DNA of 64,000 nucleotides from Hyphomicrobiales bacterium (GTDB lineage Bacteria; Pseudomonadota; Alphaproteobacteria; Rhizobiales; Beijerinckiaceae): NCBI GenBank assembly GCA_028290285.1, contig JAQGKD010000096.1:186001-250000 (forward strand), in the 5' to 3' direction. Each line of letters starts with the position of its first letter. Position 1 is the first letter of the stretch. The translations under genes were made by a program, and so were the position numbers. Of the stretch, positions 50,288 to 56,488 are shown piece by piece. The notes under the pieces were generated by a model. The model was not told the DNA's origin. It ran no database searches and worked only from the letters and a program-made list of their open reading frames with translations.

Positions 50288-52120
50288 ATGCCCTCCATCC
50301 TTTCCCGCCTCGCGGGACGGGCCGGATTTGCGCGCGCGAATCCGCCCACGCCCATGCTCGCCGCCAAATCCTCGCGCACGGCGGCGCTGTTCGGCTTCAA
50401 CCTGCCGGGACTGACGCGCTTCCAGCCCCGCACCTCGCCCGAACTGACGCGCCACGGCTATGAGCGCAACCCCGTCGTGTTCCGCTCGGTGCGGATGATC
50501 GCCGAGGCCGTCGCATCTGTGCCCTGGCTCGTCTACGAGCAAGGCATGGAAACGCCGGACCATCCGCTGCTCGCGGTCCTGGCCAATCCGAATGCAGGGC
50601 AATCGGGAACGGCCCTTCTGGAAGCGCTGGTCTCGAACCTGCTGTTGTTCGGAAATGCCTATGTCGAGGCCGTGTCCATCGACGGAACCCTGCGCGAGCT
50701 GCATGCTTTGCGGCCCGATCGCATGTCGATCGTGCCCGGTTCGAACGGCTGGCCGGCGGCTTTCGAATATCGCGCGGGCGCCGAAAAAGTGCGCTTCGAT
50801 GCCGGTGCGGGCGTGAGCCCGATCCTGCATCTGAAATTCTTCGCGCCGCTCGATGATTATTACGGCCACGCACCGCTGGCCGCCGCTGAAACCGCGCTCG
50901 ATATTCACAACTCGGCGAGTTGCTGGAACCGCGCCTTGCTCGACAACGCCGCGCGTCCCTCCGGCGCGCTGGTCTATTCCGGCCCCGAAGGCGCGACGCT
51001 TTCAGAAGAACAATTCGACCGGCTGAAAAACGAACTAGACGAGAGTTTTTCAGGCGCACGCAATGCGGGACGGCCGCTGCTGCTCGAAGGCGGTCTCGAC
51101 TGGAAGCCGCTGTCCCTGTCGCCCAAGGACATGGATTTCATCGAAGCCAAGGCTGCTGCCGCGCGTGAAATCGCACTGGCCTTCGGCGTCCCGCCCATGG
51201 TGCTCGGCCTGCCCGGCGACAACACGTTCTCAAACTACCAGGAAGCCAACCGCGCCTTCTGGCGGCAGACCATCGTGCCCTTCGTCAGCCGCCTCCAGAA
51301 GAGCTTTGAAAGCTGGATGCAGGCCGATTTCGGCACATTCGAACTGCGCGCAAATCTCGACGGCGTCGATGCTCTGAGCTCGGAACGCGCGAGCGAATGG
51401 GCGCGCATCGGCGCCGCGAGCTTCCTCACGGACGACGAAAAGCGCGAGGCCGTGGGTTATGCGCCCCGTGGCGCGAAGGGGACGTTGCCCGATGGCAGCT
51501 TCGATGGTTCGCCTGTCGAGGCGGGCGTCGACGGCGGTGGTGCACTCGATCCGGGTGGTAACGGGGGTGCCTGGGAGAGTCAGCCGCGTGATGATATCGG
51601 GCGCTGGACGAGTGAGGGAGGTGGGGCTGGCGTGCCCCGGACGGAGGCAGATATTGGCAAGCCTACCATCCTTTTCAACGAGGACGGAGGTCCTTACAGG
51701 AACCCTTTTGCCGATAAGACAGATGGAGTCATTAGATATCCGGCTAATTTCCCCCCCGCCTTTTTCATTGAAAAAGGTGCTGCTAATTGGAACGCTCCGG
51801 GGAACTCAATGCTGGGTCTGATTGCTGCTGATCTTTCGAAATTTCGCCAAGGTGGTGAATGGGATATTCAGCGTCTAACGGGTACATCAGGCGAACCGCG
51901 CTATGTCGATTACTCAACAGTCGCCATTGGAGTCTACGCTGCGTCAGCCGGGGTGCCTCAAGACCTTACCTTGTACGCACAAGATGCCTATGCAAAGCGG
52001 TATTCGCGCTTTGCACCCGGTACAGAATTCAGTACCGTGTACGAGAATTTGCCGCTGCGCAACGAATTGAATACAAAAATTGGCTATGACCTCTTCAGAA
52101 CCATCCAGGCCCGAAGGTAG
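50288..52120 (+). CDS. GTA/phage portal protein (gp3) with an additional C-terminal toxin-like domain
   Basis: HK97-type portal text (NPVVFRSVRMIAEAVASVPWLVYEQG...EANRAFWRQTIVPFVSRLQKSFESWM...) to about residue 400, then WESQPRDDIGRWTSEGG linker and an unrelated C-terminal module. Confidence 0.88.
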   Translation: MPSILSRLAGRAGFARANPPTPMLAAKSSRTAALFGFNLPGLTRFQPRTSPELTRHGYERNPVVFRSVRMIAEAVASVPWLVYEQGMETPDHPLLAVLANPNAGQSGTALLEALVSNLLLFGNAYVEAVSIDGTLRELHALRPDRMSIVPGSNGWPAAFEYRAGAEKVRFDAGAGVSPILHLKFFAPLDDYYGHAPLAAAETALDIHNSASCWNRALLDNAARPSGALVYSGPEGATLSEEQFDRLKNELDESFSGARNAGRPLLLEGGLDWKPLSLSPKDMDFIEAKAAAAREIALAFGVPPMVLGLPGDNTFSNYQEANRAFWRQTIVPFVSRLQKSFESWMQADFGTFELRANLDGVDALSSERASEWARIGAASFLTDDEKREAVGYAPRGAKGTLPDGSFDGSPVEAGVDGGGALDPGGNGGAWESQPRDDIGRWTSEGGGAGVPRTEADIGKPTILFNEDGGPYRNPFADKTDGVIRYPANFPPAFFIEKGAANWNAPGNSMLGLIAADLSKFRQGGEWDIQRLTGTSGEPRYVDYSTVAIGVYAASAGVPQDLTLYAQDAYAKRYSRFAPGTEFSTVYENLPLRNELNTKIGYDLFRTIQARR

Positions 52121-52583
52121 CCCATGGGGCTGCTGGTTCGCCCTCGTGCTGATGCTCGCGGCTTTCGTTTGGCTGGTGGTCTACGTGTCGGAACTGTTGC
52201 AGCCGACCGAGACTCGCTCTGTGACCGATACGGTTCTCTCGCCGTCGGGCAGGCTTAAGGCGGAAGTCCTCGATGTCTGGTGGTCGGGTATGCTTTTGAC
52301 GGTTGTCACCAGCGAGGTGCGGATCTCGAAGGTCGATCATCCCGAGGTTGGCGGCCTGGCTCTCGGTTACAGCGGTTCGCGCGATCTGCCGGAGTGGCTG
52401 GACGACCACACCTTGCTTATACCGCTGCCAAATCATGCTGCTGTGGGGGAGCGTGCTCTGAAAGTCTTAGGGGTAGACGTGCGTCTTCAATTCAAGCCGG
52501 ACATTCCATTGACGCGCCGACTGAAATTGGAACGGCAGAACGTGCCGAAGGAGATGTGGTGGCGATTCGATGTTCCTCCGTAG
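52086..52583 (+). CDS. Single-TM accessory protein overlapping the portal stop; candidate immunity protein
   Basis: WFALVLMLAAFVWLVVYVSELL TM helix; 35-nt overlap with the portal ORF in another frame. Confidence 0.6.
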   Translation: MTSSEPSRPEGSPWGCWFALVLMLAAFVWLVVYVSELLQPTETRSVTDTVLSPSGRLKAEVLDVWWSGMLLTVVTSEVRISKVDHPEVGGLALGYSGSRDLPEWLDDHTLLIPLPNHAAVGERALKVLGVDVRLQFKPDIPLTRRLKLERQNVPKEMWWRFDVPP

Positions 52584-52586
52584 CGC

Positions 52587-53408
52587 ATGCCGACCAGCGT
52601 CGTGGCCGATGTTCAGGACCTGAATTTCATGGATGGTTTTCAACGGTTTTTCACATTCGCTGCCATGCTGGAGCGCAAGGACATTGCGTTCCGGATCGAT
52701 CGGCACGCACCCGATGGCCTCACGGTTACGTTCATCTTCCAAGGCTCCTGTATCGAGGCCTCCTTCGAGCAGGAGCTGATGAACTTTTCGTATTTCTCGA
52801 TCCGGAGCGGACCGCATTCCGGCGAGGCCGCCCTTTCCCGACTCATCTCCGAACAGAGCGATAATTCGCTTCCGGTTGCCGTTGAGCGCGCGACAGGGGT
52901 ACTGGATCGCTGCCTCGGTTGCCTCGCAATGCTCAAGGCGGACAACATCACATACCGGATCGACCAGTTCGCGCCGGACTGCCTGACCGTTTTCTTCACG
53001 CTCGTCGCACTGCGGGTGGAGGTGAGCGTCTTTCAAGATCGGCTGGAGTTCGTCACCTACGCTGGACCGGAGGACGTGTATCGCGAAGCCGATCTACTGA
53101 AATTCTTCCCCGACCTCGCAGACGAGCCGTGCCCGAATGTTCCGAAGATCAAACAAATCCAGGGCAGACGCTGGATGCTCGAGCCCAGCGCGATCTCTCA
53201 GGACACGGCTTCCGAAATTCTGACGCTCCTCACGCGCCACGCCGCGGAAATGAACAAACTCATCATAGAGTTCCAGCAAACGCTCGGCCGTGACGAGTTC
53301 AACGAGGCGCGGAGATGCCTTGGGACCGTCATGGGTGAATCCTACCTTCAGGCCATGTATCCGCTCTTCGAACTCTATCCCGAGCTGAAGCCGGAAGGCC
53401 TGCGCTAA
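52587..53408 (+). CDS. Accessory protein with two tandem related domains; candidate immunity protein
   Basis: Internal repeat MLERKDIAFRIDRHAPDGLTVTFIFQGSCIEASFEQELMNFSYF / MLKADNITYRIDQFAPDCLTVFFTLVALRVEVSVFQDRLEFVTY. Confidence 0.65.
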   Translation: MPTSVVADVQDLNFMDGFQRFFTFAAMLERKDIAFRIDRHAPDGLTVTFIFQGSCIEASFEQELMNFSYFSIRSGPHSGEAALSRLISEQSDNSLPVAVERATGVLDRCLGCLAMLKADNITYRIDQFAPDCLTVFFTLVALRVEVSVFQDRLEFVTYAGPEDVYREADLLKFFPDLADEPCPNVPKIKQIQGRRWMLEPSAISQDTASEILTLLTRHAAEMNKLIIEFQQTLGRDEFNEARRCLGTVMGESYLQAMYPLFELYPELKPEGLR

Positions 53409-53527
53409 CCCGCACACCCGCATCCATTCATCCGCGCAAGGACGCGTGACACCCGTGCTGCCGCAAGGCAGCGGCGGTCGCGCGCGTGCGCGTGGATGAC
53501 CACTCGGCCCCATGACATGGAGACGCC

Positions 53528-53716
53528 ATGACGGACATCACGCAAAGCATCATTTCGCGGGGAGATCTTGCGCATCTGACGCTTTTCCTTTGGGCGAGCG
53601 GCGCGTCGAGCCTGCTCGTTTTCGCGCTGCGCGAGACCGCCGCGGCCAACCGCCGCTTCGACGAATTTGTTCGCGAGCTCGCCCGCTTCAACCGCCGCTT
53701 CGGAGATGACAAATGA
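53528..53716 (+). CDS. Small membrane ORF at the GTA g3.5 position
   Basis: MTDITQSIISRGDLAHLTLFLWASGASSLLVFALRETAAANRRFDEFVRELARFNRRFGDDK. Confidence 0.6.
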   Translation: MTDITQSIISRGDLAHLTLFLWASGASSLLVFALRETAAANRRFDEFVRELARFNRRFGDDK

Positions 53717-53880
53717 ACCTTTTATCGAAGCCCGCACAGCTGCGCCGCGCAACTGGCCCAGCACCCAATCCGCGCCGCGTGTTCAAGCGCTTCGTGCGTG
53801 TGCTGGAACGGCTCGCACCGTCCGAGCCCCTGCGCGGCAGCGCGCCTTTCTCCGCCGCTATCCCCAGGGAGAAGCCCTGA
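53713..53880 (+). CDS. Small basic ORF between g3.5 and the prohead protease
   Basis: ATG 53713 to TGA 53880 (MNLLSKPAQLRRATGPAPNPRRVFKRFVRVLERLAPSEPLRGSAPFSAAIPREKP); ATGA overlaps on both sides. Confidence 0.4.
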   Translation: MNLLSKPAQLRRATGPAPNPRRVFKRFVRVLERLAPSEPLRGSAPFSAAIPREKP

Positions 53881-54467
53881 TGCTCACAAAGAAGATCATG
53901 AGCGCGGACGAATATGCGTGCGGCCCGAACCTGACCAAGCGCGCCCCGCCGATGGCGGTCGCGGGCGACGGCATGTTCGAGGGGTATGCGAGCCTGTTCG
54001 GCATCGTCGATCTCGGTGGCGACGAAGTGATGCCGGGCGCCTTCCGCACCTCGCTTGCACGACGCGATGCAAAGCACGTCCGCATGCTGTGGCAGCACGA
54101 TCCCGCGAGTCCTATCGGGAAATGGCTGTCTATGACCGAGGATGCGCGTGGGCTCAAGGTCAAGGGCCAGCTGAACCTGGCGGTGGCCCGCGCACGCGAG
54201 GCGCTCGCGCTGATGCGCGATGGCGCGGTGGATGGATTGTCCATCGGCTTCCGCGTCAAGCGCGCAAGCAAGTCGCGAGGCGGCAGCACGCGCAAGCTGA
54301 TGGAACTCGATCTTTGGGAAGTGTCCATCGTGACCTTCCCGATGCTGCCGCAGGCGCGTGTCTCGGCGGTAAAGCGCGAGCGCGCTCCGCAGCGCGTCGC
54401 AAACCTGCAACCGCCTGTCGGCGATGTCGCGACGCTGATGCGTCGGGCCGCCGCTTTGATGAAGTGA
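53880..54467 (+). CDS. GTA/HK97-family prohead protease (gp4)
   Basis: FEGYASLFGIVDLGGDEVMPGAFRTSL; MLWQHDPASPIGKW; DGLSIGFRV; LWEVSIVTFPM. Confidence 0.92.
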   Translation: MLTKKIMSADEYACGPNLTKRAPPMAVAGDGMFEGYASLFGIVDLGGDEVMPGAFRTSLARRDAKHVRMLWQHDPASPIGKWLSMTEDARGLKVKGQLNLAVARAREALALMRDGAVDGLSIGFRVKRASKSRGGSTRKLMELDLWEVSIVTFPMLPQARVSAVKRERAPQRVANLQPPVGDVATLMRRAAALMK

Positions 54468-55738: not shown

Positions 55739-56488
55739 TCAACGCGCGGCCCAGCTGCGCAGGACGCTCTCGAACCAGCTGCGTTGCGGCGCGAGCAGAG
55801 CGGCCTGCGTGACGTCCCCGCACGCCTTCTTGCCCTCGCCAGTTGACCAGACGGTGACAGCCACCAGGGTCTCGCCGTCTGGCGTGAATACAGGCCCGCC
55901 GGAATCTCCGGTGCATGCGCCGAGCCCACGTCCATCAGCGTCTTTTGCCCAGAGCAGGATGCTGGAGAGCGGCGCGCGCGCCGCGAGCAATCCGCTGCGC
56001 AAGGTGCCGCCTGTGCGCCCGTCCTTCTCACGCGTGAGCCCGAAACCCGCGATGCGATAGCGGGCGCCCACTCGCACGTCCGGTGTCCAGTCGATCGTGA
56101 CCGGGCGCAACCGCGCGGGCAGGGGCGTCGCTGTGCGCAGAAGTGCGAGATCGATCGAACGCTCGCGCGTGCGCGGTGCATCGGGTCTGAACTCCGGATG
56201 CACGGCGCTCTGCGCAACCTGGATGAAACCGCTTTCGCCTTCGCCCGGCAGATGGATGCGCAGATCTCCTGCGGGTCCCGCGCAATGGGCGGCGGTGAGG
56301 ACGGCATCTTTCGCCACGACAATGCCGGTGCAGAAGCCCGCGCCGCGCGCATCGCGCTTGAGCACCATCACGACATAGGGCGCGAGCGCGCGATCCTCCA
56401 CCGCCGGTCCAACGAGCGCCGTGGCGGATGTCGCCATTCCCATGAGTACAAGCGGGACCAGTGCGCCTGCTCCGGATCTTTTCGACAT
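55739..56488 (-). CDS. Trypsin-like serine protease (S1), exported
   Basis: Signal peptide; LTAAHCAG, SIDLALLRT, GDSGGPVFTPDG triad motifs; antisense to the GTA genes. Confidence 0.9.
   Translation of the reverse strand: MSKRSGAGALVPLVLMGMATSATALVGPAVEDRALAPYVVMVLKRDARGAGFCTGIVVAKDAVLTAAHCAGPAGDLRIHLPGEGESGFIQVAQSAVHPEFRPDAPRTRERSIDLALLRTATPLPARLRPVTIDWTPDVRVGARYRIAGFGLTREKDGRTGGTLRSGLLAARAPLSSILLWAKDADGRGLGACTGDSGGPVFTPDGETLVAVTVWSTGEGKKACGDVTQAALLAPQRSWFESVLRSWAAR

Follow-up and report, generated by a model that had tools for sequence, protein, structure and literature searches.

The gene at 52587..53408 (forward strand) of the window, the 64,000-nucleotide stretch of DNA analyzed here, encodes a 273 aa protein (P0001) that is best read as a polyimmunity protein, with two R-type and one helical C-type immunity domain predicted on a single chain. 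The putative toxin-immunity cassette in which its gene lies occupies the portal gene's 3' end in a gene transfer agent (GTA) of the RcGTA type, GTAs being domesticated phages that shuttle DNA between bacterial cells. We assign a probability of roughly 0.8 to this proposal as a whole. The proposal builds on features that can be read in the DNA and its translations, namely the repeats within P0001, the solitary relatives of its modules, a precise insertion at the portal gene, variable tails behind a linker, orphan cassettes and the presence of a known toxin family in the same slot.

The architecture of P0001 was delineated from its open reading frame, a self-alignment and its relatives. The earlier note had described two tandem copies of one domain followed by a distinct C-terminal tail, and both parts of that description stand. 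Self-alignment paired residues 26-67 (R1 core, 52662..52787) with residues 114-155 (R2 core, 52926..53051) over 42 aa without gaps, with a BLOSUM62 score of 79; among 2000 shuffles the mean score was 24.0 (sd 4.4, maximum 51) and none reached 79. R2 retains the family signature, of the RVEVxxFxDRxEF type, and R1 has diverged from it (CIEASFEQELMNF), the two copies being thus unequal. A 172 aa homologue in G249, a genome of the same genus, contains both repeats and is 38% identical over residues 12-177, which indicates that the duplication predates the split of these species. The C-terminal third of P0001 did not align above chance with either repeat half, and its C-domain (residues 197-273, 53175..53405) exists elsewhere by itself, as 77-118 aa proteins that G249 and Salmonella contigs encode. 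An AF2 model of R2 based on a five-sequence alignment has a mean pLDDT of 74 and the order helix, four strands, helix; the full 273 aa protein modeled without an alignment gave a pLDDT of 40 and was unusable. From their sequence similarity, the two halves are predicted to share the same fold. Foldseek searches with the R2 model returned no match at E<=0.001 and no convincing PDB relative, and hence no fold name is claimed for it. Searches of PDB sequence profiles gave no match for R; for the C-domain and for X, the tail of the window portal, they gave nothing beyond weak, partial matches that we attribute to chance.

The cluster that harbors P0001 contains genes for the portal, an HK97-type prohead protease and capsid, a TIGR02215 connector and members of TIGR02217, TIGR02218 and TIGR02219, together with matches to NF048004 (GTA_megatron, E=0) and NF058675 (RcGTA_tape, E=2.4e-39, below the curated cutoff of that family). 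The window thus holds the RcGTA-type head-to-baseplate gene set with GTA-specific families, and by its gene content the cluster is an RcGTA-type gene transfer agent, in a draft genome with 7% estimated contamination. A trypsin-like protease gene (55739-56488, minus strand; PF00089, E=8e-21) lies antisense between the GTA capsid and connector genes, and relatives of it occur on the minus strand in 22 of 80 GTA loci.

The portal gene (50288..52120, forward strand, as are all remaining features) encodes an HK97-type portal core (TIGR01537, E=6.6e-71; PF04860, E=1.2e-87), a linker, GGAWESQPRDDIGRWTSEGGG (51563..51625), of a kind common to other tailed GTA portals, and the variable tail X (51626..52117), a putative toxin with a GC content of about 0.50. 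Overlapping the portal stop is the gene for P0003 (52086..52583), a small protein with a single transmembrane (TM) segment, and the P0001 gene begins four bases after it. A g3.5-like small GTA gene (53528..53716) closes the cassette and precedes the prohead protease gene (53880..54467), whose homologue carries a tail in L017, L044/L166 and L084. The portal of G589 is 80% identical to the window portal and lacks a tail; DNA similarity between the two genomes extends up to 51459 and resumes at 53519, as it does with relatives, leaving a gap of 2060 bp in the window versus 60 bp in G589. The entire cassette (51460..53518, about 2.06 kb), comprising linker, tail X, P0003 and the polyimmunity gene between portal and g3.5, is therefore delimited as an insertion relative to G589. 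Its composition also departs from the surroundings, with a GC content of 0.63-0.70 outside, 0.495 within the tail and 0.57-0.61 across the immunity genes. In G587, 86% DNA identity to the window runs to 51621, that is, through the linker, and is followed by divergence; the visible G587 tail is similar to that of G249, although the G587 portal is frameshifted in that draft.

Such frameshifts, in G587 and L040, together with linkers lacking a toxin in L045, L052 and L068 and a split toxin in G181, show that sister loci can degenerate, and could be taken to mean that the window cassette is likewise an inert remnant, a decaying prophage-type insertion in which toxin and immunities no longer matter. 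We consider this very unlikely for the window, where the portal is intact and all three cassette genes are open, with overlaps or short gaps between them.

Relatives of P0001 provide grounds for reading it as a polyimmunity protein. Of 298 same-family genomes, 33 had a match to it, which in most cases concerned a single R domain. An iterated profile applied to all fetched loci returned 48 R ORF records, some of them overlapping copies of one locus, and in 23 of these a small, recurrent toxin-like domain, Y, was located just upstream on the same strand; no Y was detected upstream in over half of the records, in part because the fetched loci are short. In many Y ORFs the domain is preceded by a linker such as QPRWPAGDPRGGQW or QPRVPAGNSDGGRW. 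Fusions of Y, each followed by R, involve the GTA portal in L092, a prohead protease (PF04586, E=8e-32) in L017 and, in L013, the final third of a portal. The recurrence of R directly downstream of Y makes immunity to Y-type toxins the best reading of this domain. A solitary C directly follows the portal toxin of G249, and further solitary copies occur in Salmonella contigs, one of which has an Rhs-like C-terminus further upstream, as judged by eye. Hence, two types of immunity-like domain are joined on the P0001 chain, each of which is found alone beside toxins, R after Y and C after the G249 portal toxin. The immunity-like character suggested for P0001 is supported by these small proteins downstream of toxin-like tails, and co-occurrence with such tails in other genomes, whose absence would have counted against that suggestion, turned out to be widespread. 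R, C, X and Y matched no Pfam family, and those scanned against NCBIfam matched none there.

C-type immunities were also observed in arrays near other phage head genes in L024 and L029, of the same family, where one array sits behind a protein with a QSRDDHGRWT linker; portal-type tails may not be limited to GTAs. A relationship between the G249 portal toxin and the L024 tail was tested and none was found. A 4021-base record deposited as a Salmonella phage (L002, OR850965.1) has the look of an Rhs locus from a chromosome, orphan immunities included, and is probably mislabelled.

The question of which protein protects against the window's own tail was addressed through homologues of X: an orphan cassette in G249, a copy behind QPRHPAGTPEGGRW in L118, another on a Neokomagataea plasmid and those of two viral contigs. 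In every setting seen, the window included, X is directly followed by a small protein with an N-terminal hydrophobic stretch, making P0003 the better candidate for the cognate immunity. Of these proteins, that of G249 clearly resembles P0003 and that of L118 does so marginally, whereas no resemblance could be detected for the remaining two compared; the pairing between X and P0003 is therefore in part positional. P0003 is the probable immunity to tail X of the window portal, and R1-R2-C is likely a spare immunity set, as judged from the company that its modules keep. The alternative, in which P0001 is the cognate immunity of this tail, its repeats form a built-in dimer and P0003 does something else, draws on the position of P0001 in the same cassette as X, four bases past the P0003 gene, and on the conservation of the duplication in G249, whose locus also contains an X homologue. 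We regard it as unlikely, given that the small membrane protein directly follows every X homologue seen whereas R and C modules are also in the locus only in G249, that R partners Y toxins elsewhere and that the two repeats of P0001 are unequal. The earlier note had placed P0001 as an immunity beside a toxin-like portal tail, with a design suited to several toxins, and that much agrees with the data; its further proposal that P0001 neutralizes this particular tail is not favored, in view of the membrane protein that follows X in every setting seen. The duplication, which it had read as a possible dimeric binder, belongs to modules that match immunities to other toxins, and P0001 is therefore more likely kept against the toxins of relatives. 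Ntox44 (PF15607) was considered for X and rejected: it had no match in G000 or G538, and X had no Pfam hit with E-values up to 10. X does not belong to the CdiA-type RNase A family (PF18431) either.

Tailed portals were then surveyed across GTAs. The linker is present in 11 of 80 sampled GTA portals, with variable tails behind it, and absent from the remaining 69, most of which end within a few dozen residues of the core. The tails are mutually unrelated, and RNAse_A_bac (PF18431) ends the portals of L091 (E=1.5e-16), one of the 11, and of L180 (E=5e-13), which lies outside the 80. L091 is labelled Vicinamibacteria, yet its portal is close to those of Hyphomicrobiales, and it is therefore probably misbinned; L180 comes from a genome with a listed completeness of 100% and makes the more secure case for RNase A. 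The small proteins after the L180 and L040 tails resemble CdiI_2 (PF18593), below threshold, and more PF18431 cassettes lie downstream of the tailed portals of L055 and L092. Linker tails occur on prohead proteases too (L044/L166, L084), and both X and Y occur as cassettes away from portal genes. In L116, the portal tail (L116:1-1938) follows the linker FNPHHDDLGRF and contains the stretch GSSVTGYSYRTGE...SDLDLAI, which is nucleotidyltransferase-like, with no Pfam family above noise.

Because a structural protein carries these tails, and because several of them, X included, fall in no recognized family, they might be structural or DNA-ejection accessories, with the small genes downstream encoding assembly chaperones instead of immunities. 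We consider this very unlikely, as most GTA portals have no such tail (the linker is missing from 69 of 80), the tails are unrelated to one another, two of them end in a CdiA-type RNase A domain, and X and Y cassettes exist independently of portal genes. The reading as toxins and immunities is consistent with the traits of polymorphic toxin systems found here: a conserved carrier with highly variable C-terminal tips, a gene of the immunity type immediately after the tip, and orphan tips accompanied by duplicated stretches of the carrier DNA. Copies of portal 3' DNA or of the linker were identified beside orphan tips or immunities in L034, L055, L040, L052 and L092, with 82-93% identity for the main pairs, as assigned to loci by the order and length of rows that had no locus separators. 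The placement of these copies beside orphan cassettes suggests tip exchange. Scans of viral contigs recovered a GTA fragment (L170) in which, as in the window, an R immunity precedes g3.5 and the protease; beyond L170 and the two X-bearing contigs, these scans gave no matches.

We infer from these observations that X and Y are toxic, that the immunity-type proteins neutralize their toxins and that the toxins are carried by particles. The portal C-terminal end faces the capsid interior in related portals, and the prohead protease acts inside the procapsid, so both carriers would place toxins in the head. The portal tail would thus be an antibacterial toxin riding on or in the GTA head, the membrane protein P0003 would shield the producer from its own tail, and R1-R2-C would guard against other tips in the lineage or in neighbors, with every module binding its particular toxin and so blocking it. 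Tips would be swapped by recombination through duplicated linker and portal DNA. Harm would probably come to unrelated recipients and to cells that have lost the cassette, so that carrying a GTA and receiving DNA would be tied to kinship. Clip, stem, wing and crown make up the dodecameric RcGTA portal, whose channel narrows to 28 A (PMC7296036). A folded toxin would face this narrow channel, and exit by linker cleavage or release upon lysis is possible. More generally, we give even odds to the idea that some Hyphomicrobiales GTAs are armed, with the portal dodecamer, and sometimes the prohead protease, bearing interchangeable toxins that harm recipients or revertants without matching immunities, and with immunity arrays and fusions like P0001 recording past and neighboring tips.

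The retention of GTAs despite the death of the producer on release is a long-standing puzzle. Toxin-immunity cassettes in a GTA portal gene offer a concrete reason for it, either addiction or a benefit restricted to kin, and armed GTAs, if true, would constitute a kin-discrimination or addiction mechanism that aids GTA persistence. The evidence suggests that some GTA particles are built with toxins, which would add the GTA portal to the carrier classes of polymorphic toxins and brings along several toxin and immunity families that Pfam does not name (X, Y, R, C and the TM partner).

No description of GTA portal toxins was found in the full-text literature searched, which includes a minority of the subscription journals, and the closest parallels come from other systems. 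Polyimmunity proteins and loci bring together, on one polypeptide or as arrays, immunity domains from different families that serve as backup against numerous toxins (Zhang et al. 2012, PMC3482391). P0001 likewise joins several immunity domains on one chain; unlike in known polyimmunity proteins, neither its R nor its C domain matches a model in Pfam or NCBIfam, and its carrier is a GTA portal cassette. The MuF polymorphic toxins of temperate phages, including Bxa, have a variable toxin C-terminus on a phage head protein encoded beside the portal gene, with adjacent immunity genes (PMC5576092, PMC11699363), whereas here the carrier is the portal itself, or sometimes the prohead protease, of a GTA. 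Membership in the MuF group was rejected, since Pfam profiles detected Phage_portal but no MuF domain in the window portal and in eight others. The CdiA-CT RNase A toxins and their CdiI_2 immunities (PF18431, PF18593) are matched by the PF18431 domains at the ends of the L091 and L180 portals, the toxin being located on a GTA portal and not on CdiA. Finally, the window shares its gene order and GTA-specific families with RcGTA-type GTAs and differs from those described in the papers searched by its portal tail and immunity cassette.
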